Assembly: GCF_963675165.1 (NCBI RefSeq)
Contig: NC_087378.1
Coordinates: 6,195,205-6,259,204 of the forward strand
Length of the DNA stretch: 64,000 bases
DNA from: Halichondria panicea
Lineage: Eukaryota; Porifera; Demospongiae; Suberitida; Halichondriidae
Direction: 5' to 3'
The first letter of the stretch is position 1. Every line of letters begins with the position of its first letter. The translations under genes and the position numbers were made by a program. Shown here in pieces: positions 26,984-59,576 of this stretch. The notes under the pieces were generated by a model, which saw only the letters and a program-made list of their open reading frames with translations, did no database searches and was not told where the DNA came from.

Positions 26984-28483
26984 CTAGGATGGATTGCACT
27001 CTGCCCTCCCCGAGTTCATAGCACGCCTCATCAAAGCCGCCTGCATCTCCTCAAATGATGGTTTTTCCTCTGCTTGCTCGATCTTGACAATCAATGAATC
27101 ATTCCACAGTCCTTGCGACACAGCTTCGTGGGTAATCCATTCCTCTCGAGTCCCCAGAATGCGATTGTCTTCCCCCTCTGTCAGAAGAGAAAGATCAATG
27201 TTCGCACCGCAAATCCCACTGAGATAGACGCGATGGTAGTTCCCAGAACCAAGCTTTAGCATTGGAACAAGCACGTGGATAGAAGAAAGTAGGCTACTAA
27301 AGGTCGGGCTCTCACTCGTAGTGGCTGTACGGACTTCCAGTAGAATCAAGGAGAGGGAGGCATGCGATTCAAAGCCTGAGCCCAAGCCTCTAGGATGCAC
27401 AGCTAGACATAACTTGTAGTGTTGAATGGTAAAGGGAGCACTGTACCATGTTGTGCTAGATCTAGCTAGTTGGGAGAAGTTGAGAAGTCGAAACGCTGTC
27501 GGCTCAGGCTTGTTCATAATGTCACTCTCTTCCTCAAGAATAGTCTCAATAGCTTCATATGCTGCACTTTTCATGCCACCATGTACACTCCCGTCCAAAG
27601 CTCTAAGCTCAAAAATTAAAGACTGTTTAAGCATTTTGGCAGTTTCTTTCTCTTTAGCTTGTTTTTCTTGCATGCTTTTAAGCTCACTTTCCATCTTTGT
27701 AGTCTTTTCCTTCATTTCTTTGTGTTCAATCGCAAGCATTTGCATATGTTGTATCATGCTACTCTCCATATGTCTCTCTAGATCTCCTGGCTTCAAGCTG
27801 ACTGTACAACCAGCTACTTCAAACGGACACTCCTGTTTTCGCTTGGGGCATATTTTCAAGTGCTCTGGCATCTTTCCTCTTTCAATTAAATCGCTGTCAC
27901 AATTGTTGGGGCAAACTAATGGGAAATTGAGGCACACAATCTTGTGCTCTGCAATAGCTGCAAATGTATCCTGTTTTCCACAGTGCTGACACTTTTCTTG
28001 TCTCTGGCTACACTCGGTAATGATGTGACTTGCTAGGTTAATACGAATCACTTTCACACTACACTTATTAGGGCACTCGATCTTGGCATAGCTGCAGCCA
28101 CTTTCTCCTGAACGCTTCAGATGATCACTTAACTCTCCAAGTTCCCCCGTCCACTCACAGCCATGGCACTTATTGGAGCACGAAATCTTGAGCTGGCTAA
28201 TCTCACTCTTTAATCCCTTGTTCTTCACATGTTGGAACTGAGAGCCCTCCGTTCTGCAATAAGGACAACTCGTCTTGTGCTGTTTCGTAAACCACTGCAA
28301 TAGACAGGTTCCACAGTAGTGTTGACCACAGCAAACTGTTAGCTCAGGATCTCTCAATACTTTAGTACAAATTGTACACTTGTAACGATCTTGAACACTA
28401 TCTATAAATTCATAATCGTAACCTCCGAAGTCGTCCATATTGTGGCTGTGTGCTTGACTATTGCAATCTTGTTTCAATAGCAA
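26984..28483 (-). CDS. RING / TRAF-type zinc-finger protein, TRAF-like (499 aa, intronless)
   Basis: A single uninterrupted frame. Residues ~36-76 form a RING finger (CTIC ... CCGQHYCGTC ... CPYC), giving probable E3 ubiquitin-ligase activity. Residues ~95-245 hold several TRAF-type zinc fingers (CSNKCHGCEW, CPNKCSVKV, CQHCGKQDTF, CPNNCDSDL, CPFEVAGC). A coiled coil follows (~250-300: KEMKEKTTKMESELKSMQEK). The C-terminal ~170 residues (WYSAPFTIQHYKLCLAVHP, SHASLSLILLEVRT) resemble a diverged MATH/TRAF-C domain. Order and length match metazoan TRAF proteins, which link receptors to NF-kB or JNK signalling. An alternative start is Met16 (MDDFGGYDYEF). The paralogue at 29151-30599 lies immediately upstream in the same orientation. 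The assignment to the TRAF-like class is firm; orthology to a numbered TRAF is not claimed. Confidence 0.88.
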   Translation of the reverse strand: MLLKQDCNSQAHSHNMDDFGGYDYEFIDSVQDRYKCTICTKVLRDPELTVCCGQHYCGTCLLQWFTKQHKTSCPYCRTEGSQFQHVKNKGLKSEISQLKISCSNKCHGCEWTGELGELSDHLKRSGESGCSYAKIECPNKCSVKVIRINLASHIITECSQRQEKCQHCGKQDTFAAIAEHKIVCLNFPLVCPNNCDSDLIERGKMPEHLKICPKRKQECPFEVAGCTVSLKPGDLERHMESSMIQHMQMLAIEHKEMKEKTTKMESELKSMQEKQAKEKETAKMLKQSLIFELRALDGSVHGGMKSAAYEAIETILEEESDIMNKPEPTAFRLLNFSQLARSSTTWYSAPFTIQHYKLCLAVHPRGLGSGFESHASLSLILLEVRTATTSESPTFSSLLSSIHVLVPMLKLGSGNYHRVYLSGICGANIDLSLLTEGEDNRILGTREEWITHEAVSQGLWNDSLIVKIEQAEEKPSFEEMQAALMRRAMNSGRAECNPS

Positions 28484-29150: not shown

Positions 29151-30599
29151 TTAAGATGTGCGACAATCCTCTCTTGCTGCCATACTCAATGCAGATGCTC
29201 TCATGGCACTAGCAAATAATGCTCTGTGGAAGTCACCACCTCGCTCGATCTTGATCATAAACGATTGCCCCTCCAGCTCCGCCTTTACAATGATGTGTGG
29301 AATCCAATCTTTAATCGTCCCAAGAATCCTCCTCTTCTCTCCAACTTTCAATGGACTTAAATCAAACGGCAAAGCCCCTTTAACCTCTTTCAAGAACGAT
29401 CGATGAACTCGGTTGTTGGATAATGGCACCAAAACACGAATATCGTCCAATGATCCAGTGAAGTCCTCGTTGTTTGGGGAAGATGAAACGATATCGAGAA
29501 GTATCAATGAGAAAGAAGCATGTGTTCCCAGGCCCACTCCCACTCCTTTGGGGTGTACACCCACACACACTTTAAAACCCTCGATTATGAACGGAGCACT
29601 GTACCAGATTGTAACATCACGAAAGTGCTTAACAAAATCAATCACTCGGAATATCAGAGAATCGAGATTTTCAAGCTCCTCCTCTTCTAGCATTGACTGG
29701 ATGGAACGGAAGGCTCCAATACGCTCATTTTCTGTGTCACTCTGTTTAATGGCATTCACTTCAAATGCTAGCCCTCTCTTCAGTGATGATAGCAGCTCTG
29801 TCTCCATTTCAAGCTTGCTATTCGTCTTGGCTAACTCTTGTTTCGTCTCTTGAAGCTCCTCCTTGGTTTCTTTGAGTTGCACCAAAACCTTCTTGCTAGA
29901 TTCCATAAGCATTGTCAAATGTTGAGCTTGGTTGGCTGTAAGGTGCTTTTTGAGTTCGTCAGGTTTGTCTCGAACTGTACATCCAACTTCTTCAAACGGA
30001 CACGGTTTGCGGGCCTTTGAACATGTGGAGAGGTGAGCTTGTAGATTCTCCCGAGTAAAGGCCCTGAACATTGACAGCGAGCATCCATTGGGACATGAGA
30101 CTGGAGCCTTGGGGCAGGCATCTTTGTGTGACTGCATAGCCCTGTGGGTGTCTTGTTTCTTGCAGTACTGGCAAGTTTCAAGTCGGAGTGGACATGAGCT
30201 GCGAAGGTGTGTGTCGAGATCTTTCCTGCAGTTTTTTGTTCCACACTTATTTGTGCAATCCACTGTCTCATATCTACAGCCACTGCGTGACTCCATGTGC
30301 GTCTTCAGATCACCCAATTCTCCATTCCAAGTACAGCCTTGTGTGCGGTTGGAGCAGTTGATCTTGAGTTGGTTTATCTCACTATTGAGACTTCGATTGG
30401 GAACATGTTGAAACTTTGACCCCTCGGCTCTGCAATGTGGACAACTCTCCTTGCGTTGCTTGCCAAACCATTGTTTCAAACAGTCGCTGCAATAGTGCTG
30501 TCCACAACAAACGGTTAGCTTAGGTTCACGAAGCACATTGGTACAAATATTGCAGTTAAAGCGATCAGAAACAGGTGATATAAACTGGGAAGACTGCAT
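29151..30599 (-). CDS. RING / TRAF-type zinc-finger protein, TRAF-like paralogue (482 aa, intronless)
   Basis: It has the same plan as the neighbour at 26984: RING at ~16-56 (CNIC ... CCGQHYCSDC ... CPHC), TRAF zinc fingers (~70-225: CSNRTQGCTWNGELGDL, CTNKCGTKNC, CQYCKKQDTH, CPNGCSLSM, CPFEEVGC), a coiled coil (~235-285: QLKETKEELQETKQELAKTN) and a C-terminal MATH-like region (WYSAPFIIEGFKVCVGVHP, THASFSLILLDIV). Start MQSSQFISPVSDRFNC. The two proteins are clearly tandem duplicates that have diverged substantially, most in the coiled coil and C-terminus. The lack of introns in both, in a genome where other genes here have 5-13 exons, suggests an intronless ancestor, perhaps retrocopied. Predicted E3 ligase or adaptor in innate-type signalling. 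Confidence 0.88.
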   Translation of the reverse strand: MQSSQFISPVSDRFNCNICTNVLREPKLTVCCGQHYCSDCLKQWFGKQRKESCPHCRAEGSKFQHVPNRSLNSEINQLKINCSNRTQGCTWNGELGDLKTHMESRSGCRYETVDCTNKCGTKNCRKDLDTHLRSSCPLRLETCQYCKKQDTHRAMQSHKDACPKAPVSCPNGCSLSMFRAFTRENLQAHLSTCSKARKPCPFEEVGCTVRDKPDELKKHLTANQAQHLTMLMESSKKVLVQLKETKEELQETKQELAKTNSKLEMETELLSSLKRGLAFEVNAIKQSDTENERIGAFRSIQSMLEEEELENLDSLIFRVIDFVKHFRDVTIWYSAPFIIEGFKVCVGVHPKGVGVGLGTHASFSLILLDIVSSSPNNEDFTGSLDDIRVLVPLSNNRVHRSFLKEVKGALPFDLSPLKVGEKRRILGTIKDWIPHIIVKAELEGQSFMIKIERGGDFHRALFASAMRASALSMAAREDCRTS

Positions 30600-33934: not shown

Positions 33935-36900
33935 ATGGCTGAAGACAGCCATCTATGCAACACTCCTTTGCATACTGCAGCAAGCTTTGGACAATTAGAC
34001 ATTGTCAGTAGGTTACTACAATCAGAAGAGTATGACGTTAATGTTGTGAATTCAAGCCAGCAGACTCCACTTCACATTGCTTCGATCAGTGGTCATATTG
34101 AAATCGTCAACTTCTTGGTTAATGAATTCAACGCAGATATGGGAGTTGTTGACATTCAAAATAATACACCGCTACTTCTTGCTGCTGAAAATGAGCATGT
34201 AGAAATAGCTATTGTGCTTATTCTGACATCTGCTTATGGAAGAAGGCACATGAGGTCCAGGCGGATAGGAACACCTGGTCGTGTGTGTACTTATTTTAGT
34301 GAGCAACAAAAAATGGTTATGCAGAGATTTATATTCCGTTTTAATGATGACACCAAAGCTAAAGACAGAAGTGTAAAGCTTTTACGTGCCCAGTTCGAAG
34401 ATCTTTTTATTAAGAGTGATGACTCTCCGATTCAATATGATGAAATCAAACCATTTATTCCTGTGTTTTTAGCAGCTTTTCTAGGACTTCAACATGCTAT
34501 AAGTGTAATTGCTGAGAAATTTGGGGGTAAAAATAGCCTCAAGAACATTACAATTGATGGCTTGTCGCTCTTACATTTTGCATGCTTTGGAGGACATGCA
34601 GATCTTGTTAAGAATCTCGTATCTGATTATCACTTCGATTACTTACTCAAAGACAAAAGAGGATGGTCAGCCTTGCACTTTGCTGCTTGTGGTGGTGATG
34701 AAAAAACTGTCCAATTGCTGATAACGGAGTACAAATTAGATTGCTCTGCTATTGGTATATTTGGGGAAACTCCTTTATGCATAGCAGTTTACATGGGAAA
34801 TCTATGTACAATAAAAATTCTGATTGAAGAGTTTAAGTGCAATCCTCACATCAAAGCCGTAGGAGGCTACACAGTGATTCACTATGCATGTATAAGTGGT
34901 GCGATAGATGCTATAGAAAAACTTATAAGAGTTTATCATGTTAATCCTACAGCTGCTAATGATCAAGATGAAACTCCACTGCACATAGCTGCTTTTTATG
35001 GTCATGTTAAAATTGTCCGACAACTTATCATTGATCACAATTGCGTTCATTTAGTCAATAAAACAAATAAGACTGGTTACTCTCCAATTTGTGCAGCAAC
35101 TAAAAACGGTCACTTTAAGACAGTGCAAGTATTAATTGACGAGTTTAATTGTGACCCTAACGCAAAACGATGCGAGGGCTGGACGATCCTTCATTATGCT
35201 TGTCAAAGTGGCCACACAGATTTTGTGAACAAATTAATGGCAAAATATGATCTTGACTTAACAGTAGAAACCAATGATGGAGACACTCCTTTACATTTAG
35301 CCACTTCTTACGGACATGCTGAAATAGTGCAGATTTGGCCTGTAAAACAAATACATATCAAAAAATGTAATAAGCATGGATTCACCCCACTCTGTCAAGC
35401 AGCTCGAAATGGGCACACAAAAACTGTAGAAATGCTAGTGGAACAGTTTAAGTGTGATCCGACTGATAAACAAGTTAATGGAAAGACACTTCTCCATTTT
35501 GCTTGTCAAGGAGATCATACAAAGCTTGTAGATCAATTAATAAAAAGATACCACCTGGATCCATCCATTAGAGATGATGATGGAAACACATCTTTCCACA
35601 CAGCTGTCATAAATGGCCAAGTTAAGACTGTACGGCACCTTACAAAAGAGCACAAGGTTGAAAGCCACATTCCTAATGTGTATAATACCAACCCACTAGT
35701 TCTTGCAATTTTGAATGGAAAGAAAGATATGATGAATATGCTGGTTACAGAATTAAACTTTGATATCCATATTACAGTTGGACCTTGTGGTTATTCTCTT
35801 GTCCATGTGGCATGTGTCCACGGCCATACAGAAATTATAAAAGAGCTAGTTCATATGCACAATTTAAGTCCAAATGCATTAGATAATGATGGAAATACGC
35901 CTCTGCACCTGGCTTCTCTTCATGGGAAATACGAGGCAATTAGATTCCTCATTTCTGAGTGTAATGTTGAGCGTAGTGTTCAAAATATCAATCAAATGAC
36001 GCCACTTTCGCTTGCAGCAGCCAAAGGACATAGAAGTACAGTTCATAGTTTGATAAAGGAATTCAACTGCAATCATGATGAAAAAGGCTTCAAGGAGCAG
36101 TCCATTTTGCATTTTGCATGCACACAGGGCTATTTAGACTTGGTAACTGACCTCATCACAGAATACAAGCTTGATCCAACAGCTACAGATAGTAACGGTA
36201 ATACTCCTCTACATCTAGCAGTGTACAACGGGCACATCGAAGTAGTAAGATACTTGTTTGATAATTGCACTCTAGATACAAGTTTTGGAGTAGGCAATCA
36301 TTCTGGTGATACTGTATTACATGCAGCCGCTCAAAATGAGAAAACAGATATTGTACAGTATTTAAGTACGAAACACAAAGCTGAGGTTGAGAGCCGCAAC
36401 AAAAATGATAACACTCCACTCTTGCTTGCAGCTCTACACGGGCATTTTGATACGGCGCAAATACTAATTGACCAATTCGGTTGCAACCCTCGGGCCAAAG
36501 GTTACAAGGGGCAAACTCTTCTTCACTACACTTGCTACACTTGTAAAGGTGAGCACACAAAGCTTACAAAGCAACTGATAGTGCAGTATCAACTTGATCC
36601 TATGGCTAAAGATGATGACGGCAATACTCCTCTGCATTTTGCTGCCGCAGCAGGACAAGTTGAAATGATTAAGTTTCTAATTACTCAAAACACTAAAGTG
36701 AACTGTCTTAACAGAACTGGCTGGACCCCACTATCCATGGCAGTTTTTTATGGCAAAAGAGAGACTGTTACAATATTGATAGAGGAGTTTAACAGTGATG
36801 TACATGTTAAAGATTCTCGTGGATTTACTCTTGTTCACCTAGCATGTGCAGCAGGTCACGCTGAGCTGATGGATAAATTGTTATCTGATTACAATTGTAA

Positions 36901-39900
36901 CCAAGACGTTTCAATAGGGAAACTTACCATTTTTGCTGTTGTGAAAGGTCTATCTCACATGTTAAAGCATCTTGTTACTAAGTACAAAATTGAACTTAGT
37001 AGATTTTTGCTGTTTCAAGCAGCCTCAAGAAAACATACGGACACTTTGAAAGTCTTAATAGGAGATTTTAAATGCAACCCTCTCGCTAAAGACGCAAATG
37101 GCAAAGGAATGCTTCATTACTTTGCTCAACTTGGTGGTAGTACAGCTATAATGGATGAATTGGTGAGCATGTATCATCTTGATCCAATGTCTAAAGATAT
37201 TAATGGCAATACACCACTGCACACAGCTGCTAGCTTCGGACAGCTTGCCATTCTAAAACACTTGATTACTACGTATAAAGTTGATATTGACAACTGTAAC
37301 CATAAAAATTCCACATCACTATGTCTGGCAGCACAATGTGGGCAGAAAAGTATTGTTAAACTACTTATTGACGAGTTCAATTGCAATTCTAAGGTCAAGG
37401 GCTATAACGGATGGTCTCTTCTTCATTATGCATCATGCAGCAGTAAATCAAAGGAACTTGTAAATGAATTAATATCAATCTATGGACTAGATCCCACAAC
37501 AAAAGCTACTGATGAAGACACTCCATTGCATATAGCAGCCCAATTCGGTAATGCTCTGATTCTTCAATACTTCATAACAGAGAAGAAAGTGGATATTAGC
37601 GACATGTTTTTCACCTTACATTGCTTAGCCGAACTGAGTGGAGATAAGAACACAGCAGAGCTGTTCTTAGACATTCGTATAATGGGTGACAAACTTCCTG
37701 CTACATATACTAACAATCAAACACTTCTTCATGGGTATGCATATGAAGGGAATAAAATAAATATTGTCGATCAACTAATCCAGAGATTTGGCATTAACCC
37801 AATGGCTACGGATGAACGTGGTAATACACCACTGCATATTGCTGCTTCCAAGGGGAAAATTACGATACTGGAGCATTTGATTAGTCGATATGGCGCTCAA
37901 CTTGACAGCCGTAACAGCAACAACTACACTCCACTTGGTCTAGCAGCTGTGAATGGTCATGCAAGTATAGTAAGAGTTCTCATTGAGAAATTCAATTGTT
38001 ATCCACATGTGAAGGAGTCTGGAAATGCAACTGTTCTTCATTGCGCCTGTCAAAGTGGAAATACCGACTTAATAGAAGAACTAACACTTAAATTTTCGTT
38101 TGATTTGTCAGCTCAAGATGAAGATGGTAATTCATGCTTGCATGTTACTGCTCAACATGGGCATACAGATGCATTCCAATACTTGATTTCGAGGTTTCGT
38201 AAGGATGAACTATGTGTATGCATTATGCAAAAAAATGCAATAAGACAGTCGCTTTTACATATGGCATGCTTCAGCGGAGATATAAAGTTAGTGGAATTAT
38301 TGCTGAATGAATTTAAGCTTCCATTACTGTCGGCTGATCACGAAGGCAACACACCTCTTCATATAGCTGCTAAACAGGGCAATCCTAAATGTGTAAAAAC
38401 ACTACTTTATGAGTACAATGCTCCTATTCATATTAAGAATTTTAGTGAACAAACAAGTGAACAACTCGGGAAATTGTCATTAAAAAATGCAGGTCATATC
38501 AATATTTTATTTACCAAGTATATGAAAGAAAAAGGATCAGATATACAAAAACACTATGAAGAAATTTTAAAGCTATCACAGCTGCAGTATCAAAACAGAA
38601 AACTAACTCGAATATTTGTTCTCGGTCATCATGGGGGTGGTAAATCAACTCTGGTGGACACATTAAAACACTCCTTTGAGACGAATTCCTGGTTCAAATT
38701 TCGTTCACCCATTAAGCCCCACACAGCTGGTATTGTACAAAGTGTTGTAGATAGCCCTCAGTATGGACGACTGTTAATACATGATTTTGCTGGAGACAGT
38801 GAGTACTATTCTTCCCATGCTGCAATTCTGAAAAATTTTGATTCTCAAGCGGGATCCAACATATACATAATTGTTTTAAACCTAACCAACACAAACGAGC
38901 AAATCAAACTCAGATTTGGATACTGGTTAAATTTTATTTCAACGTTACAAGATAATTCATATATATTACCAGTTGGTAGTCATTGTGATACGTTCTCTAA
39001 TAAGTTTCCTGTTCTTAAAAAAACGACCATCATAGATGAAACCGCACATGAATTCGTTTCTCAACTAGAGCTAAAAATGCAAGTTTTAAACAGTGAAGCT
39101 ATTGACTGTCGTAAAAAAGATGAAGTAATCGAGTTTGTAGGAAACATTATACAGCAGGTTTCCACAGCAGCGCCTTCCTTTGAACTAACACTAGAAGCGA
39201 AATTCCTCTGTGGCTTTTTAAAGAAGGAGTTCTCAGAAATCCCTGCTTGTAGCATCAGTAAAATTCTCAAGCTTATAAAACACAAACAAGTCCCATTGCC
39301 TCGTGAAGAAAGTAAACTCTATCTTGTACTTAAAGAGCTTTATCACACAGGATTAATCTTGATGATTGAGAAAGAAAATGCTGCAATACAAGATTGTTTG
39401 GTGATTTTTCAATTGCAAAAGATAGCAGAAGAGTTACACAAAAAACTATTTTCTAAAGCAGCTAAGAGTGCCATATCATCAAAAATCAATTCAATACAAC
39501 TAACTGCTGGACTCATACCAGAGTCTTTACTACCAGTTTTTCTCCCAGAACACATAACAAAAGAATGTTTGCTTTACCTTCAGTACTGTCAAGAACTAAA
39601 GGATGTGGAGATTTCAGGAGATTTTACTTTAACTACATCTGAACCAACAATGATTACTGACCAAGATAGTGAGTCGGAATCTATACTATTTTTTCCAGCA
39701 CTCTGTGAAGTGAAGAAGGAAGGCACCTTCTGGATTAAAGCGAGCTGCGCATTTGGATGGTATGCCATATGTGATCGACAGCGATTTGAGCACTTCCCAA
39801 TTAGATTCCTTCAAGTACTTATGATACGTATCATACACAAATTCCCATGTAAACAATACCAGCCTAGATCTAGGTCAAATTTAGCTGTATTAGATAGTTC

Positions 39901-41039
39901 TAGACAGCAAGCATTGGCAAAGGCTCAAAGGCTTAATCCTGGTTGCCAGGTTTGGTCAACAGGCCTTCACTGGCTAATGGAAAATGGAGTTGAGGCAGTT
40001 GTTGATATGATTAAGGAGGGTGGTAGTAAACAACTCGTTGTAATCACTAGAAGCCGGGAGGATTGCAAAACAGAATGTGCAACAGTGTTAAGAAAAATTG
40101 TTCAAGTGATAAGCGAAACTAAAGTAGAGTTTTGTCACCGACTATCACCATCTCTTTACCTCCTTCATCCTGAAGAATTGATGGGGAATAAATTCCCAAC
40201 TTTAGTCAGATCATCCATGCGGTATTCTCTTGAAGAAGTCATTGATGGCTGGAAGAAGAATAAAAAACATGTTCTCAGTGCAGACAGCAAAAGAAGCAAA
40301 CCTTTATTGTTGAGAAGTATTCCAATTGCACTTTGTACACACTGGAGTAAGTCAGAGTGTTAGTCTAACTGTATGTATTGCTTATTATTTTCATTTACTT
40401 ACCCCGTTTTTCATGTATACAGATGTGTTTTTCCCAATGGATACTGAAATGGTCCGATTTGCCCTGAAAGACGTTGTTAATTGGAAACTCATGGGTCTCA
40501 ATCTTGACATTTCCTGGACTGAGTTGAGCAAAATTGAGAGTGATAATGTAGCTTTTCCTGACCACAATCTAAAAAAAGAGCGTGTTATCCAGCTATGGAT
40601 GTCTAACGAGCCAACATGGCCTTCTATGGTGGAAGCACTCAGAGAACCTTCCATTGCTTTGTACAGAAGTGCAGATGAAATTTCAACCCAACACAGTATG
40701 TTCTATAGTCTCATTATAGATTTTTATATACATCTATATTCCACAATACACGCAGACCTGCCTCTACAATGCAATATTCTTGATGAAGAAAATTCGACGA
40801 TCCGTCCTAACAAGGATTTCCTAAAATCGTTTGCTGATATCATCAGTTCTCGATGGCAGTGTTTTGCATCTCCCCTCTCCCTCACCTCAGAGGACATTGT
40901 GAGCATCAAGAGAGAAACAAGGGGAGCAGAGCCCACCAGACAAGCACTCGTTATGCTGCAGAAGTGGGCAGCCCACGAGACAGCAACTTATGGGCAGTTG
41001 AGAGAGAGACTTCGTACACGCTCAGTTTTTCATATCTAA
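33935..41039 (+). CDS. ANK-Roc-COR protein with two Death domains (~2,320-2,342 aa)
   Basis: Exon 1 (33935-40346) is 6.4 kb without an intron; it splices in phase to 40423 (donor GTAAGT, acceptor TATACAG), ending at 41039. A possible 60-nt intron (GTATGT at ~40697 to GCAG at ~40756) is in-frame either way. Residues ~5-1530 are ankyrin repeats (LHxAAxxGH type). Next is a Roc GTPase domain: P-loop GHHGGGKST at ~1564-1571, DFAGD at ~1617-1621, and SHCD at ~1682-1685 where N/TKxD is expected. A COR-like region follows (~1730-1970). Exon 2 encodes Death domain 1 (ALKDVVNWKLMGLNLDISW, KKERVIQLWMSNEPTWPSM) and a second Death-like module (FADIISSRWQCFASPLSLT, RQALVMLQKWAA). The order matches DAPK1 without its kinase. 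Inferred role: Roco-type signalling scaffold or receptor in death or immune signalling. Upstream exons of a 5' UTR may exist (an acceptor-like GCAG precedes the ATG). Confidence 0.88.
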
Positions 41040-50126: not shown

Positions 50127-53100
50127 TCAAAATGGTCTCTGATATTGCATTCCAGTGTTCATCTGCGTGTTTGTCATACCACCGCCAAATCCAGTCATCT
50201 GCTGTGGTTGCATGTAGCCCATGTTTCCATATCCACTCGCACCACCACCATAGTTCATTCCCATTCCAGGTTGCCCCATTCCTTGCATGCCCATGTTGGG
50301 CTGTGGTCCCATCGCCATTCCTCTTGGCATTCCCATTCCAGGTTGCAGCGGTGCACTCATGCCAGGTTGCATTCCCATTCTACCAGGTTGGAATCCCATT
50401 CCAGACATCGATGCTCGTGACTGTTGTGGCATTGGTGAAGTGCTGATGTTGTAGTTAGGCCCAGAGAAGGAGGTGGGCCCCGATGAAAACGAAGGGTTAG
50501 TGGAAGTCGAAGGTGTGGTGGAAACACTAGACTGGGCGAGTTGGTTCATAGAAGGTCGACCAGTGCTTGACGCGATCTTGGGTTTGGCAGGACCCAATAG
50601 ATTGTCCATATCTATGTTAATGCCAGCAGCATTCCATATGGTAGAGGAAGCAGTGGTGGACACCTGGAAAAAAGGCAAATATTCCACTTGTGCGCATACA
50701 TGTACATACAATTATACCTGTGCCCAGACTTTTTTTAATATAAATGGTGCAAAATATGCTCATGCCTATTAGAACACAACAAATAGGTGAACAATTTTAC
50801 CTTTTCAGCTGGCTTGGGCTCTGACATATCGAGAAGTGAAGGTTGCTCTTGTGCAGTGGGAGTGGGCATGAGGAAAGAGCCACCAGTGGTAGGCTGGGGA
50901 GCCAATAGAGGCTGGAGAAGGGGGAGGGTGAATATCAAACATGGTAACTGTCCAGCAAACAATACAGTTGTCCGTAAGGTACAGGTACATGCATCTACAC
51001 TATAATAATGAAACCACTACTGGTGCTGATGCCTCGGTGGAGGTGCCAAAGCTACATAACATAAAGCTACTAATAGCTTTTACACACACATTATAAATTA
51101 TCATGATGAACATTTTCGCATTAATTAATTTTGCTGCATAGAATCCAGGAATCGCAGGTGTAGTAGACTATATTTAGTTAGGCTTAGGTCATTAGAGTTA
51201 TTTATACTTATGATTTCCTGTCCTTCCTGTTAGTCCTGTTTTGTGTGTATTTAAGTCAGTGTGCTGTGTATTATATTCAGTCTTACTGCCATGATATTGT
51301 TGCTTACTGAACCCCTATCAGTTTAGCTAGTGACTCAGCTAGGCTAATACACTACAACAGGGAACTCAAATAGTGGGTAATGATCGACCATGATTGTTGT
51401 AAAACGATCGATGTTCGAGTCTAAAAATTAATGGCCGCATCAGTAGAGCCTTGCAGCTCTCTTCTCACTGTTGCAGCTACCAATAGCTAGCATTCTAGTG
51501 CAGAGCTAACTACCTTAAGGTGACACATATTTTCACAGGTAGATTTGTTTGCGTTTTTACAGTTTTGTACATTTTGCGGTATAATTTTTTGTGAAATGTC
51601 GATCTGGATACATTAAACAAGAGGGCGGCCAATTATTTGCGAGTACTAATTTTTGCGATTTACTCTCATTCGCAGAAATAGCAGAAATTAATACACACGA
51701 AAATATGTCACCTTAAAGTACTGTAAGTAGAGTAGCAACACTCCATGGACAAGTTTTTCTACGCACTCTTCTGAAAAGGCTGCAATGGCATTCCAAGTAA
51801 GCTAAACTAGGCATAACTCGAGAACAAAGCATTATTTTGAAAATCCACAAATTAAAATCCATGACTAGAAGCCTATAGGAACTCTTACTTACACTTCATT
51901 GATCATTGAGCAGCTGTAGCAGTCTATATACAGATCGACACACACACAGACACACTACCATATACCACACTACCGTATACCTCGCTTGCGCATGCGCACC
52001 GCGGCATAATTATTATGTTAGGTTATGTATACACATCACCTAGGAGACAACTACAGCCAAATACACTGTAATTACCCGAGGCGCGTGAGCGGCCACGGGC
52101 ATAGTAGTCATTTGTCTTGTGATATCTGTTGCATTTATAGCATGGATAGTCTTCATACAACAAGTTATTAGTCTAAAGTTAAAGCTTCGTTGTCAAATAA
52201 AAGAGAGCAAAAGCTAAGAAGCTTGAACTTGCTCGCTGGCTGGGTACATGCGCTTTTTATTCGAGGTATACGCGTCCTTTATTCAAGGTATAGCTACACA
52301 TTTGCAGCTGAAGTGATCTTTTACCGATCTCTATTAAAAGTAGAATTGTAGTTTGTTGCTTCTTTATTAGAACACTCCTCTGGTTATTCAGCCTAAATAT
52401 CAACTACACTTAGGTGGGTGGCTCAATGTCAAAGCTCACAACAATTATATTATAGATGCTATAATTCACCCACTCCCCCCCACTGTGAAAAACGTATACA
52501 TACCTGAGACATCCCAGTTGAAGGTGTGCTCTGAAAGATTCCAAAGTCGGCAAACTGTGCTGGCTGCTGTGTGGGTTGTTGGGGAGCTGGTACAGATTGA
52601 AAGCCAGCAAAATCACCAAATCCACCACCTGCACACGCAGAAGAAAAGTCATACATTAACTCCCTCCAAGCACACTACAAAAACAAAATCTACTATGTAG
52701 AATGTGTACTATTATACAGAGGCATCTCGTGTCTAGCATTTTGTTTGTTAGGGCAGATCAGTGCATTATTTATGGTGGTCTAAATAAACTGAGGACCCTA
52801 CAGTGACACAAACTCACCAGCAGCTTGGCTTTCCTCTGGGGGTCCTTTAAAAGCTGCCTCAAAGTCAGCAAAGCCATCACCTCCACCGCTAGTCTTCTGT
52901 GGCTGCTGAGAGGGTGTGTCCCCAAATAACAGCCCCTGCTGTGCTAGGCCCGAGGCCCCCTGTTGTGTGGGAGCCGACTGTTGGGCAAAGGTGGCTGCTG
53001 CTCCGAGATCAACCAGTTTGGATGGTTGGCCTCCTGTCTTTCTGGCAGTGCTGGGAGAGTCTCGGTTCATCTTCTCAAAGCCACTGAAACTAAAGAAGAA

Positions 53101-54697
53101 AGAAGAGAAGCAAGAAAAAGCATTAGTATGTACAAATCATAACAAACTCAGGAATTGCAGATTAAAACTTGTATATACCTCAGATATAATTTTACTGTAA
53201 CATCAATTATTTTAGAGAATGTCACCCGTGATAATCACTTGTACATGTACGTACAGTACCTTGGTTCCGGTTCCGGCAATGGGCTGGAAGATGTATCTTT
53301 CTCAGGACTATCCTCATCCTCATCAGAGTGGGTGGAGTGAACAGGTCCTCGAGCATCCTCATCGTAATAAGTACCTTTGGAACGGGGCTCTTGTGAGTAG
53401 CGGTCACCTGAATGGAATGTACGAGCACTCAATCGTGTACATATGCAGTGAGCCCACAGTTCTCATGACAACAGTGAACAGCAAATAGATGATAGGCAAC
53501 ATTGTAAGTACATGTATACATATGTACAGTGCTGCAGCAGTAAGGTATTACATGTTGCAAGGGGTGAATATGATTGCAATGAATATTAAATGTATCACAC
53601 CACACATACAACTAAATGCACATGCAACTAAATGCACATGCACACAGAGTCTTACTGTATGATTTTTTGGTCTCATCGTTGGAGATGCCGACATATTTAT
53701 CACGATTGGTGCGAGCAGTCTTTCTTGCTTCTCTCAGTCTGTCTTCGTCTTGTAAAAAACCAACGATTTCCTTACTCTTCTGTCGGACTGGAGAAGAAAA
53801 AATACATGTCACCTTCTGTTTTGATACCACAACAACCAAATGCAGATTTGCTCAGCTGATATGATGGGCATATCTACAGTTGGGCAGCAGCAGGAAGTCA
53901 CCGATACCATAGAAGCTAGAGCACTGACTGACCACATTTCGAAGTGTGCCCAGATAAATACGCACATCTACAAATTGGATGTTTACAAAGAGTAAAGAGT
54001 TGTTGTGTCTTTAGCTGAGACAGATAAGCAATAAAGTAGGCATACCACAGCTACTCTCCATATCTCTGTATGTAGAACATTACTTATGCATACATGTACA
54101 AGTTTGCTGAATATTGAGTTATGCAGTAAAGCATGTTTAAAATGGGCCCTGTCACAATCGAGAGATGAACAACTAAAGAACCATACAACATCGGTGGTCA
54201 AAGGGCAACAAAAGCTATACATCAAGGAACTATCATGGGGATGATCTAAAAATGAAAGCCATACACTCACCATTGATTCCTTGATCCTTGCCCTGCTCAT
54301 CACTGAACTGGTAGTTCTCCAACGGCTTCATATCATAGACGTGCTCTCTAGCACTTGTGACCACTCGTTCCGAGCCGTTGAGAATCAGGTAGTTAAGTAG
54401 TAGAAGAGCCTGTGTGGGCGCGGCGTGTGTGTGTGTGTGTCAGGTACATGGGTTGGTGAACAGGAACAAGCTTAAGGAATACCTTGTAAGTTCGTCGCCA
54501 GTTCTTCTTTGCCTCAAACATTCGTTTCCACAGCATAGCCATGACCTCCGGATAGTGTTCGTAAGTGAATGTGTACTTGGCTAGTTGAGCCATTGTCGAT
54601 CCATGTGGGCCCCAGGTATCATCATTAGTGGCCTCCCGAACCTTGGTCTCTACATCAGAGTAGTTCATGACCACATTGGCCCTGTGTACATGAGTGA

Positions 54698-54740
<43 letters not shown>

Positions 54741-54836
54741 GCAGTTGGTTGGGGGTGTGTACATGTACCTAGTTTACTATTAAACTTATAGACTACCACC
54801 AAAAAACACTCACATTTTATCCACAAATCTTTGCAT
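50127..54836 (-). CDS. CLINT1: Clathrin interactor 1 / epsinR-like ENTH protein (9 exons, ~561 aa)
   Basis: Exons 54836-54814, 54681-54483, 54409-54271, 53787-53656, 53407-53260, 53089-52818, 52628-52504, 50911-50801 and 50663-50127 join in phase (562 codons). Residues ~1-150 are an ENTH domain: NVVMNYSDVETKVREATNDD, WGPHG, KKNWRRTYK, NGSERVVTSAREHVYDM and DEQGKDQGINVRQK. These match CLINT1/enthoprotin more closely than epsins 1-3. CLINT1 binds PI4P and clathrin/AP-1 at the trans-Golgi and endosomes and carries Vti1-type SNAREs. The tail has DFxxF/GFADF-type adaptor motifs (DGFADFEAAF, GGFGDFAGF, FADFGIF), NxxF/DLL-like SLLDMSEP, and a Met/Gly/Pro-rich end with repeated QPGMGM. A repeat cluster fills the 1.6-kb intron before exon 8. 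It is divergent with the Ki-67-like gene. Confidence 0.92.
51010..51990 (+). repeat. Dispersed repeat family, copy 2, with two nested insertions, in CLINT1 intron 7
   Basis: It has the same landmarks as 31376-31900 (GCTGATGCCTCGGTGGAGGT, AATGGCATTCCAAGTAAGC, end CACACTACCATATACC). It is interrupted by ~190 bp at ~51150-51370, which starts TGTAGTAGACTATATTTAG and ends ACACTACAACA (a TG...CA, LTR-like insert). It is interrupted again by the MITE at 51511-51720. Confidence 0.68.
51511..51720. mobile_element. Nested MITE with TTAAGGTGACA ends
   Basis: The left end TACCTTAAGGTGACACATAT (then TTTC) is mirrored by GAAAATATGTCACCTTAAAG then TA at the right. TA lies at both borders. It is inserted inside a copy of the dispersed repeat, hence younger than that copy. 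Confidence 0.7.
54697..54741. repeat. (GT)n microsatellite in CLINT1 intron 1
   Basis: An uninterrupted GT tract of about 40 bp; a shorter one sits at 54421-54440 in intron 2. Confidence 0.9.
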
Positions 54837-55165
54837 CGTGGCTTCTTTGTAGGATGAGGGTAACTTTAACGTACCTAGCAGCTTACAATTTCACAGCCAA
54901 CACAGAATAACGGAGTCGATAACTTAACAGAGCAATTGATGTCATCACGTGACAATAAGCAGCAGTGAAGGTAAGAAAGAACAGGAAAATGAAATTTCAA
55001 ACAACACATCTGATTGGACAATAACCAATCCAATTACAGATTCAAAAGTAGCGAATTTCTTTAGCGCTCAGTTTCTCAAGCTTTTGTTATAAAGCGGATC
55101 GAAGTTCGATTCCTTCGACTAGCCTAGCCAGTATTTTTTGGATCACTAGATCACAAGCTTAGAAA
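54837..55165. promoter_or_regulatory. Divergent promoter region of CLINT1 and the Ki-67-like gene
   Basis: The 329 bp between two opposite start codons must hold the 5' ends of both genes. It contains two inverted-CCAAT motifs (ATTGG at 55012 and CCAAT near 55025 and 55030). CCAAT boxes bound by NF-Y are common in animal cell-cycle promoters; their use here is inference. No TATA box is evident. Confidence 0.5.
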
Positions 55166-58100
55166 ATGGAGTGTTGCAATTTTATTCACATCAAGCGAAA
55201 TGGAACCGAAGGAACGGCTTATCCTCTAATCAAAGGCTCCACTATGATCTTGGGCAGGTAAATGCTTGCACTTGTATTAATCAATATTAATACTAATTAA
55301 TACCTAATCTCTTATGCAGAGATGAGGATTGTGATTTCAGAGTGCAAGTTCCAAGTGTTTTTGGAAAACATGCTAAGCTTAGAGTGGACACAACAGGAAA
55401 GGTGAGTCATTATACGCTGACAATTTGATGCATCGTTCCACTGTAGACATTAGGGGGAGGGGTTAGGTACGTTACCATTGATTCTGCGTACTGTAATTTC
55501 TAGCAAGTTTGTAAGCACACGTACACGTAGGTACGTCTTGTAATGTAAAACACATTGTAATGTAAAACAAGTTGCCTTTTACCCACTCAGGCCTACATCG
55601 TAAGCCTCGTCTCCACGGCTCCTGTGTACGTGAATGACTCTGAAGTCAAGAGTGAGCTGCTGGTTATTGACAAAGCCGTCCTCAGGATTGGCACTTGCTC
55701 ATTCAAGTTTGCTTATGCTGATGGAATATTCAGCCCACTGCGTGAGGAGAATGGCACTCATACTCCGAAGAAGGTTAGTGTGTAATGAGGTTAGTGTGTT
55801 TAGGCCCTACAACTTTGGCAAAACTGGTCACAGGCTAACCTATTTATTAACTTTGCCTCTGCTATTTTTACAGACTCCATTGAGAACCCCAACAGCTCCA
55901 AGCTCTGTCATAAAAACTAACAAAGAGAATGCATCATCAACTCCCAAGCTCCCCAACTCAGCTAAGAAAGCACCCACTCTGAACCAAGTAAAGAAGACAC
56001 CTAAAACTCAGTCCAGTTCGACTCCCAAGATACATGAGGCATCTCTGGTGAGGGTGATGCAACAGGAGCATGCTAGTGGGTCCAGTCGTACACCAACTCC
56101 TATTAAGGTACTTAAAGAGGCTCTTGATTACATACAATCATGTGCGCAATTAGGTTTGTATTATTATAGCTTCCTTTTCATTTCAGGCAACTCCAAAGTC
56201 TAGAATCTCTAGTGGGTCCATCTCGTTAACTCCCATCCCCTCCATGGACACTTCGAGACATCGAGCACTACGAACAACTCGAAATTCATCTCTTCTGTCC
56301 ATCCCTGAAAGCGATGAATCGACAGCTTCCCCTCACAGACCTGCTACACCTATCCAGCCAGATCTCAACTTATCTCGTCGATCCCTCAAAAGCACCCGTA
56401 AAGCCTCCCTGATGTCTATCCCCGAAAGCGATGAATCGACCGCTTCCCCTCACAGGCCTGCTACCCCCTACCAGTCAGATCTCGACTTATCGCATCGGTC
56501 CTTCAGAAGCACCCGTAAAGCCTCCCTGATGTCCATTCCAGAAATGGAGGGCGCGTCAGTTCAATCTCCTTCCCCTCGAAAACGACATATTGAGTACTCT
56601 CTAACCCCCAATCAACCGTTGCTAAAGAAATCGCGCAAGAGTGTCACTTTTGGGCCAGTTCTCTCTCCTGAAGTGTTTGACAAGAGACTACCCTCTTGTA
56701 CCCCAGTTAAGACTGGGTTAACTCCAAAAGGCCAACGCCGCTCTCTGCCTGCCTTTGAAATCGTCCCTGAAGAGGAAGAGGAGGCCAGCTACCTGTATGA
56801 GTACTCCATGACTGGGTTTGAGGTCAGTTGGTATTTGCATGGTTGTACAATGCAGCACTCACGCTCCAGTTCTTCTTGATGCTTTGAGGCATTTTCCGTG
56901 TCTAGTTTTTGTACTTAAAGACTAAAATTGTAGCTATCGTTCTTAGCTACTGAAACTACATTCTGTACAGTATGATGTTACATGTAATTTAATAGTTGTG
57001 GTCTCGTTTGCAGGAGAGCTTCTTGACGTCGGAGAGTGAAGAGTCAGAGGGTGAAGAAGATGCTACTCCCATCACATCACCTGCTAAGAAGCTGGTCACT
57101 CCTCTGAGAAAACAGATTGAAAGCAAACCTGAGCTCCGCAAGACTCGAAGAGCTTTGTCCACTCCTTTGAGAGCCGGTATCAGGAACCACCCTGGACTAG
57201 GGAGAACCAGGAGAACATTACCCACTCCCATAAGAAAGTCTATTGTTGCTGGAGGCAAACTGCGCAAAACGAAATCCTCAATGCCCACACCAGTTCGAAA
57301 AGAGATCCAGGGAGCAGTCGCACTACGCAAAACTAAGAAGAGTATGCCCACCCCTGTTCGGAAGGAGATCCAGGGAGCAGTCGCACTACGCAAAACTAAG
57401 AAGAGTATGCCCACCCCTGTTCGGAAAGAGATCGAGAAAAAGCCTGGTCTACGTAAAACCAAGCAGTCTCTCCCTACACCAGTTCGAAGTGCAATTGGAG
57501 ATAGGCCTACCCTCAGGAAGACCAAAAGAAGTATGCCTACCCCAGTCAGGCAAGAAATCGAAGCAGGATCCAGTCTCAAAATAACCAAGCCTACGATTCC
57601 CACTCCAATTAGGGAAGGTATCAAGAAAGGTGTCTCTCTACGCAAGACAAAAAGAAGTGTGCCCACCCCTCTCCGAAAGCAAATCGAGAACAAAATAATG
57701 CTGCGCAAAACAAAGCAAGTTATGCCTACTCCTTTGAGGTACCAAATTAAAAATCCGCCAGGGCTTCGCAAAACAAAACAGTCAATGTCTACTCCAATTC
57801 GTAAGGAGATTGAAAGAAAGCCTACCCTTCGCAAGACAAAACAGTCAATGCCTACCCCAGTTCGCAAGGCGATCGAAAGAAAACCATCTCTCCGCAAAAC
57901 CAAACAGTCAATGCCTACCCCAGTTCGCAAGGCGATCGAAAGAAAACCATCTCTCCGCAAAACAAAGAGATCCATGCCGACCCCTGTGCGCAAAGATATC
58001 GAATCCAAACAAAACCTTCGGCAAACGAAGAAATCGCTGCCAAGTCCACTCATGAAGTCCATCCATGCCAAACACGGGCTAAGGAAAACCAAACGTTCTA

Positions 58101-59576
58101 TTCCCTCTCCTTTGCGGTTGGCCTTGGAAGCAAAGCCCCTTCTTCGTAAAACCAAGCAAACACTTCCAACTCCTATCAAGGATGCTATCAACAACAGGCC
58201 AGCTCTTCGCAAGACAAAAGTAATCCTCCCTTCCCCCCTTCGTGCTCAGATCGTGGCAGGTACCACTCTCAAGCAGACAAAGTGTATTATGCCTAGTCCT
58301 CTTCAAAAGGACATCAAGTGTAAACACACTCTCCGTCATGTCCCAGTGAATAAGCTTGGCAAACGTGCTATCCAGGAAAATGATTCTCCACTTCCACAAC
58401 CCCCTGCAAAGAAGCGACGAATTATACCTTTCCAATCTCCTTCACCGTACGATTTCAGCAAGTACTTCAAGCCTGGCTGCAAGTCCCCTAATGCAAATGT
58501 AGATGGTCTGAAACACCTATTCAAATCACCGCGAAAGAATTTTTCAATGGACCCCGCTGATAATTTCATCAAAACCATTTTCGGCTCTCCTGTTGGTGTA
58601 ACCTTCTCTTCTCCTGTGGCTGGCACTGCCAAGAAGCTCAGCAGGTCACAAGTACAAGCACCCTGTCTTAAGAAGACGATTGAGCCAATCCTGTTTAATG
58701 TTGATGCTACCACGATTACAACCACAGCTACACGAGTCACACGTCAACGCAAAAGAGCTCCAGCTGCAAAAAAAGCTGTCTCAAGATCAACCAGGTCCTC
58801 TCGAAGTACTAACGCTGTTGCTACAGTGGAAGAGGTCAAAGGTATATATGTACATGTATACTGTTACGGTAGCTGGCTCAAGCTATTCTATAGTTCAGCC
58901 TCAGTATTGATTTAGGCACTACAGTGTGTATAATTATTTTGCTTGCATGACTGTAATTATATACATGTAGTTGTTCACGTGTAGGTTATTAGCTCGTGAA
59001 GTTTCATGTGGTCAATCATACCTGTATATACCTTGTTTTACATGTCTTATTTTTTTCATCTGTGTAGCTCCCACTACTAGAAGAGGGAGGAGGACAACTG
59101 AGACTACTGAGCCTGCATCTGTTGTTCCAACTACTCGTACAGCAAGATCATCTCGCAAGCAAGAAGTTGAAGCTGCCCCTGAGGTTCAACCTACTCGTAA
59201 GCGGAGTAAGCAAACAACCAAGAAAACAACAGAAGTGAAGATTGAGAATCCTCCCAGCAGCCGTGCTACCCGATCTCGTGCCAAGAAAGCAGACACTTCA
59301 GTCGTTGAAAAAACCACCAGCCCTGCGCCTCGTACCACTCGCACCAATGGCAAGAAAGAGGAGACTGTCGATACCTCGGAAGTCACCCGCTCATCTAGAT
59401 CAAGAGCAAAAAAATCCATTAAGTGTACGCCCCTTCTCAAAGAGACACATATCCCTACTGAGAATATACCTGAAAAGAAAACAAAACGTAAGCGCACCAG
59501 GACCTCACAAAAGGTGGAGAGTGAGTGCAAAGAGACAACTGAAACTCTCAGACGATCCTTGCGTCTCAGAAAGTAA
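55166..59576 (+). CDS. Ki-67-like mitotic chromosome protein: FHA, PP1-docking motif, 21-aa repeats, LR tail (7 exons, 1,187 aa)
   Basis: Exons 55166-55257, 55320-55401, 55591-55773, 55874-56107, 56187-56822, 57014-58841 and 59068-59576 sum to exactly 1,188 codons. Residues ~1-105 are an FHA domain (LIKGSTMILGRDEDCDFRV, then VFGKHAKL; GR...S-x-x-H-type core). Residues ~347-378 read RKSVTFGPVLSPEVFDKRLP then SCTPVKTG: the RVxF plus 'SPEVFD-LP--TP' block is the PP1-gamma docking signature of Ki-67 and RepoMan. Residues 438-857 are twenty 21-aa repeats. Further on, DGLKHLFKSP resembles the FKELFQTP core of vertebrate Ki-67 repeats. The C-terminus is Arg/Lys-rich, ending LRRSLRLRK, like the Ki-67 LR chromatin-binding tail. 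Two diverged copies of STRKASLMSIPE (exon 5) precede the docking motif. Expected role: perichromosomal PP1 recruitment in mitosis. RepoMan lacks FHA, so Ki-67 is the better match. Confidence 0.9.
57098..58357 (+). repeat. 63-bp coding tandem array: 20 units of 21 residues in the Ki-67-like gene
   Basis: Each unit starts TP or SP, continues [VLI]RKxIxxxxxL and ends RKTKxSMP, with no length change over 20 units. Every unit therefore has a Ser/Thr-Pro followed within a few residues by Arg/Lys, a cyclin-dependent-kinase-type site. Units 4 and 5 are nearly identical (57289-57351 and 57352-57414), as are units 13 and 14 (57854-57916, 57917-57979), marking recent duplications. Later units switch to SPL. 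The minus strand shows a spurious 407-codon frame here. Confidence 0.95.

Follow-up and report, generated by a model that had tools for sequence, protein, structure and literature searches.

Ki-67 is widely used in the clinic as a marker of proliferation, and its molecular job is still debated. A gene at 55166-59576 on the forward strand of a 64,000-nucleotide stretch from the sponge Halichondria panicea (the whole stretch is hereafter denoted the window) raises the question of whether a sponge encodes a protein of this type and, if so, which of its working parts are retained. We consider it probable, at roughly 85%, that the predicted protein is a Ki-67 (MKI67) orthologue, encoded in one copy as far as searched, with the PP1, array and FHA–NIFK behaviour proposed below. 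By analogy with vertebrate Ki-67, its most likely role would be that of a PP1 scaffold coating the mitotic chromosomes, with the link from the FHA domain to NIFK absent.

Gene model and family membership

Seven exons (Table 1) join in phase to an open frame of 1,187 codons closed by a single stop, and all six introns are of the GT...AG type, in agreement with the preliminary description, which had presented a phase-perfect gene of this length. A Pfam scan of the predicted protein places FHA (residues 28-92, 34.3 bits) and PP1_bind (residues 347-380, E 1.2e-10) above their curated cut-offs. When compared with solved structures, the FHA domain finds two human Ki-67 FHA entries first (36.1 and 35.9 bits, E 3.4e-8), 15 bits ahead of the next FHA family (20.8 bits); the PP1 block finds RepoMan peptides (E 5e-6) and then Ki-67 (E 0.011), the entries being 5inb, 5ioh and 5j28. 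Since the best solved-structure matches are thus the human Ki-67 FHA domain and the RepoMan/Ki-67 PP1-docking peptides, we assign the protein to the Ki-67 family. The N-terminal FHA domain and the PP1-docking block had both been claimed beforehand and both stand; the profile comparison proposed at the same time returned Ki-67 and RepoMan, rather than unrelated FHA proteins, as the closest matches.

Family membership, also claimed earlier, is supported in addition by named Ki-67 relatives. Querying with the whole protein returned 17 relatives (P0001-P0017), among them the Geodia barretti hypothetical protein GBAR_LOCUS6177 (P0011), and a search from P0017 returned 114 proteins, P0017 included, among which were a Ki-67-like protein of an ascidian and numerous vertebrate Ki-67s. 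The sponge-type set used below consists of the window protein and P0001-P0020 (P0018-P0020 having been found through P0017), and the chordate set of P0021-P0129 (109 proteins), the named members of which are chordates and four of which carry no species name. Two members of the former, from Corticium candelabrum (P0019) and Oscarella lobularis (P0020), are already named 'proliferation marker protein Ki-67-like' by NCBI; they share the FHA domain, the PP1 block and a long 21-residue array with the window protein, although their C-terminal ends are unlike it. The homoscleromorph and ascidian 'Ki-67-like' proteins have their FHA domain, PP1 block, Ki-67-type motif and basic tail in the same order. 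P0001-P0016 are 35-49% identical to the window protein across 36-74% of the query, their predicted proteins beginning past the FHA exons; all 16 have the PP1 block and the 21-residue array, while an EYSMTGF motif is found in 11/16, a DPxDxF block in 9/16 and a C-terminal RRS[SA]RL in 9/16. A tree built from 52 columns of the PP1 block in 26 rows supports a homoscleromorph and a vertebrate group; it gives the window protein no supported place and speaks neither for nor against its sponge origin.

The genome of the same species was searched over 131 Mb in 39 contigs. The window gene is the single PP1_bind match above the cut-off, and all four matches to a query made from the 21-residue array lie inside it, with no array paralogue elsewhere. 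The PP1_bind search thus found no separate RepoMan gene in this genome, which fits the statement of a review that RepoMan is probably a duplication product of Ki-67 (PMC8354752; this and the other articles cited by PMC number were available as excerpts). A second PP1_bind match, at 18.4 bits, was considered as a RepoMan paralogue and rejected, as it has no RVxF motif and is regarded as a chance match.

Table 1. Parts of the Ki-67-like gene, in window coordinates.
Feature	Position	Strand	Evidence
Exon 1: start codon, first FHA strands	55166..55257	+	splice model; FHA Pfam match
Exon 2: FHA core with phosphopeptide loop; Phe45 codon (55360-55362) replaces Ser	55320..55401	+	
Exon 3: end of FHA	55591..55773	+	splice model
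Exon 4: S/T-P-rich linker	55874..56107	+	splice model
Exon 5: linker with an internal 117-bp repeat (56296-56544), then the PP1-docking block and an acidic stretch	56187..56822	+	
PP1-docking block, residues 347-380	56634..56735	+	PF15276, 41.9 bits; RepoMan and Ki-67 PDB peptides
Exon 6: acidic run, then the array (20 x 21 residues), the putative Ki-67-type motif and the first part of the basic tail	57014..58841	+	
20-unit basic S/T-P array (21 residues = 63 bp per unit), residues 436-855	57092..58351	+	
Single putative Ki-67-type motif, residues 903-924, containing GLKHLFKSP	58493..58558	+	
Exon 7: remainder of the basic tail, rich in Thr/Arg/Lys and with LRRSLRLRK at its end; stop codon	59068..59576	+	

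The PP1 and FHA–NIFK arms

The PP1 block (RKSVTFGPVLSPEVFDKRLPSCTPVKTGLTP) holds an RVxF motif plus a KiR-SLiM, and keeps 10 of the 14 positions specified by the KiR-SLiM consensus (PMC5005033); the range is 8-13 in the 20 other sponge-type rows and 12-14 in five chordate rows. Its two T-P sites, T369 and T376, are seven residues apart, a spacing equal to that of T412/T419 in RepoMan (PMC4032110). The genome also encodes a complete, single-open-reading-frame PP1 catalytic subunit of 318 residues, the nearest PDB chains to which are PP1-gamma and which, counted from the alignment, carries Arg at PP1-gamma position 20, Glu at 77 and Phe at 81. In human, these three residues order the Ki-67 pocket, and the preference of Ki-67 for PP1 gamma over alpha is due to Arg20 (PMC5005033). 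Judged on sequence, the PP1 arm looks intact, with a PP1 bearing the selectivity residue Arg20 encoded in the same genome. The RVxF/PhiPhi/KiR block would be expected to recruit this PP1, and T369 and T376 would tie the recruitment to CDK state. Three further STPPase_N loci (L006-L008) are present in the genome.

A different picture is obtained for the FHA domain. Position 45, the column of the serine that we take to be the FHA phosphothreonine contact, is Phe in the window protein. Among the relatives, counted apart from the window protein, Ser occupies this column in 107/108, including Corticium, the exception being Ala in Oscarella (P0020). These 108 are the proteins with a pattern-recognised Ki-67 FHA core out of 129 fetched; they are not independent rows, having 82 distinct N-termini, and the sponge-type ones are P0017, P0019 and P0020 only. 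The comparison is limited to relatives reached via P0017, since a search for FHA-bearing relatives with window residues 1-110 gave 68 candidates but none at E <= 0.001.

The binding partner was also located in the genome. A NIFK/Nop15 homologue of four exons and 209 residues (predicted splicing) lies at L013 1907-3806 (C11:1469906-1471805); it was found with a human NIFK query, and its identity was confirmed by matches to fungal Nop15-type chains and to human NIFK. The alignment stops at human residue 188 of 293, equivalent to sponge residue 183 of 209, and there is no S/T-P site anywhere in the 209 residues. The Ki-67-binding sites of human NIFK, Thr234 and Thr238 (PMC4811767), fall beyond the segment matched by the sponge protein, and the hNIFK_binding profile gave two matches in the genome, both below the cut-off and neither in the NIFK locus. 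Because the contact serine is Phe and the NIFK homologue is without the segment bound by the human Ki-67 FHA domain, the FHA–NIFK link is, on these sequence comparisons, probably absent in Halichondria panicea. Past the matched segment, the yeast and S. pombe chains continue for 14 and 29 residues, respectively, and the fungal chain 8i9p for 82 residues.

The repeat array, the Ki-67-type motif and the basic tail

The preliminary description had reported a long Ser/Thr-Pro repeat array, which is real, although it is not of the vertebrate K167R type. Its 20 units (consensus MPTPxRKxIxxKPxLRKTKxS) are spaced by exactly 21 residues in 19/19 intervals. Seven or more units follow one another in phase in 21/21 sponge-type proteins, a count biased towards array-bearing proteins because the set was gathered largely by similarity that included the array, and P0018-P0020 by way of P0017, which itself bears the array, versus 0/109 proteins of the chordate set, where the longest run is 1 or 2 units in 108 proteins and 4 in P0106. 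The repeat region of Ki-67 is described as remarkably variable between species (PMC8354752). A COMPASS-Shg1 match (PF05205) to the array lies at the cut-off in the window protein (24.0 bits); of six relatives scanned, P0001, P0002, P0005 and P0013 have it above the cut-off (27-40 bits), P0009 has it below, and P0017 is not listed. This match probably reflects the composition of the repeat, and we do not adopt homology.

Alternating charge blocks, averaging about 30-40 residues, have been proposed to drive formation of the chromosome periphery (PMC9106583). Residues 433-851 of the window protein have a computed net charge of +97, which falls to +57 with all 20 S/T-P sites phosphorylated; negative 25-residue windows are absent from this region when unphosphorylated and make up 3% when it is fully phosphorylated. 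An array that repeats every 21 residues and hardly changes sign does not look able, from its sequence, to form alternating charge blocks. The linker (residues 105-346), on the other hand, goes from +20 to -16 on full S/T-P phosphorylation, and the whole protein from +155 to +51; the corresponding change given for human Ki-67 is +126 to -355 (PMC8786303), figures that are not strictly comparable as only S/T-P sites were counted here. On these computed charges, the phosphorylated array would stay a polycation, with only the N-terminal linker reversing its sign. As the sign flip is confined to the linker, phosphorylated sponge Ki-67 would be an amphiphile of two blocks, one directed to chromatin and the other outward, instead of a chain of alternating charge blocks.

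C-terminal to the array, residues 903-924 are the best site in the protein for a matrix derived from chordate FKELF-type motifs (score 15.2, reached by 2 of 3000 composition shuffles). The site is aligned in all seven relatives chosen for comparison, flanked by a proline-rich stretch and the DPxDxF block, and the loose form G-hydrophobic-xx-[LM]F-xx-P is found in 12/17 relatives, the others being P0001, P0006, P0007, P0015 and P0017. P0001 offers no good match to the matrix, and P0017 has several LDGxxRLxKTP copies. The remainder, residues 951-1187, is rich in Thr, Arg, Lys and Ser (25% Arg+Lys, 19% Thr) with a net charge of +36 across 237 residues, and its LR/RL pairs are confined to the last nine residues. 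This terminal LRRSLRLRK is similar to the RRS[SA]RL ends of 9/17 relatives P0001-P0017, and to APVRRTRRK in several fish; those of the homoscleromorph and Xenopus proteins are different. If it acts as in vertebrate Ki-67, the basic C-terminal half would be the part that attaches to mitotic chromatin.

Overall, the window protein shares with vertebrate Ki-67 the FHA domain, a PP1 block with RVxF and KiR-SLiM, a putative Ki-67-type motif and the basic C-terminus, as well as S/T-P-rich repeats inside one large exon. It differs in size (1,187 residues versus >3,000 in human), in its repeats (20 units of 21 residues versus K167R repeats of ~120 residues), and in having a single motif, Phe for the FHA contact serine and a Leu-poor tail.

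Taken together, these features lead us to suggest, tentatively and at somewhat less than even odds, that the two Ki-67 arms have become uncoupled in this sponge lineage: PP1 docking and a PP1 with Arg20 are kept, the FHA contact serine is lost and NIFK has no phospho-docking tail, and a permanently positive polycation brush stands in place of charge blocks switched by phosphorylation. If so, the core ancestral job of Ki-67 would be PP1 delivery and chromatin coating, and the FHA–NIFK link and the charge-block switch would be features of other lineages. A sponge Ki-67 with PP1 docking kept and the repeat and FHA pocket altered would amount to a natural experiment to find out which parts are indispensable, and would allow the charge-block and FHA–NIFK models to be tested outside vertebrates.

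Two small sequence features lie close to the PP1 block and the array. Immediately before the PP1 block, exon 5 contains a further direct repeat of 117 bp, in 2.1 copies. The EYSMTGF motif (residues 402-410, 56799-57016) spans the exon 5/6 border and is present in the window protein and 11/17 relatives P0001-P0017; P0017 and the Corticium protein have an MTGF-x-D-[IL]-F-[QK]-SP form close to the C-terminus.

Alternative readings, ancestry and neighbourhood

Several observations weigh against the assignment or parts of it. The exon models of both the Ki-67-like gene and NIFK are splicing predictions from the DNA sequence. The FHA searches of the genome do not amount to a reciprocal test: a search with the Xenopus FHA domain gave no match, which is uninformative because the FHA domain here is spread over three exons, and an exon-wise FHA family search gave 17 matches without the window gene among them. 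The PP1 block departs from the KiR-SLiM consensus at 4/14 positions. The FKELF-type site is weak by itself, with a local hidden Markov model giving only -0.1 bits and a strict motif regular expression finding no match in the window protein; for the FKELF-like core claimed earlier, the matrix and the alignment speak in favour and these two measures against. K167R (PF08065) gave no match in the Pfam scan of the protein at E <= 1, and the tail, described earlier as a Leu/Arg-rich basic tail, is basic but has only 3.4% Leu. As K167R has no profile match, the tail is Leu-poor and the phosphothreonine-contact serine replaced, the 'complete set of Ki-67 hallmarks' of the preliminary description was an overstatement. 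With regard to the FHA–NIFK link, the Phe need not stop the domain from binding through other surfaces, and a short NIFK could be the ancestral state instead of a loss, since the yeast and S. pombe chains also end soon after the match.

The protein could instead be RepoMan (CDCA2)-like, or of the type ancestral to both Ki-67 and RepoMan before their duplication, and the closer match of its PP1 block to the RepoMan peptides than to that of Ki-67, together with the presence of one such gene above the cut-off in the genome, would suit this. We consider it improbable: RepoMan shares the docking block yet is described in the literature as lacking an FHA domain, whereas the window protein has one at its N-terminus that best matches that of Ki-67, and a single co-orthologue of Ki-67 and RepoMan would in any case be best named Ki-67. 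Convergence, in which an unrelated FHA protein acquired a PP1 site, is close to excluded. Although the array and tail share little sequence with vertebrate Ki-67, and basic low-complexity sequence easily arises, the Ki-67 FHA match stands 15 bits over other FHA domains and the homoscleromorph and ascidian proteins preserve the order of FHA domain, PP1 block, motif and tail.

Fungal bridgin provides a further comparison, with an FHA domain, a putative PP1 site, 13 disordered repeats and a basic C-terminal domain for which that of human Ki67 can substitute (PMC7794384). A linker of this kind would act at kinetochores, where bridgin resides, and not at the chromosome periphery. However, the PP1 block of the window protein is of the Ki-67/RepoMan type while that of bridgin is described as unconventional, and the unstructured region of bridgin is acidic (PMC7794384) whereas the array here is strongly basic. 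We regard a bridgin-like role as improbable, somewhat more so than a RepoMan-like identity, and retain Ki-67 as the preferred assignment.

The preliminary description had also proposed that the Ki-67/PP1 system predates vertebrates and lies deep in animals. This is right but was already known, from Ki-67 of Trichoplax and Hydra and from the named sponge proteins: Booth 2014 aligns Ki-67 of Ciona, Saccoglossus, Hydra and Trichoplax (PMC4032110), and Ki67 has been named the metazoan homologue of bridgin (PMC7794384). No description of a sponge Ki-67 was found among the best title matches in the open-licence literature. Any novelty may lie in the anatomy of the modules, namely the repeat, the FHA/NIFK pair and the PP1 arm. 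On its sequence, the protein appears to be a real Ki-67 orthologue and an ordinary member of the family; for its function in sponge mitosis, we infer throughout.

Upstream of the start codon are two TTTGAA hexamers resembling the cell cycle genes homology region (CHR), at 54996-55001 and 55041-55046 (-), as many as are found in 161/2000 shuffles, so that they may be due to chance; two CHR elements are known from the promoter of human MKI67 (PMC8629999). An Rfam scan of the window gave no match. Divergent from the Ki-67-like gene is an epsin-type gene with an ENTH-domain exon at 54393-54764 (-) (PF01417, E 1.3e-20), the C-terminus of which may be encoded by a Gly/Met-rich open reading frame at 50127-50711 (-) that has no Pfam match. 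Further away, the frame at 33935-40363 (+) encodes 2,142 residues, comprising many ankyrin repeats and, after them, a Roc-like stretch that narrowly misses the cut-off; it is overlapped by a frame with a Death domain (40326-41039). The neighbouring frames 26984-28483 (-) and 29151-30599 (-) each encode a RING and a TRAF-type zinc finger, and are possibly tandem duplicates.

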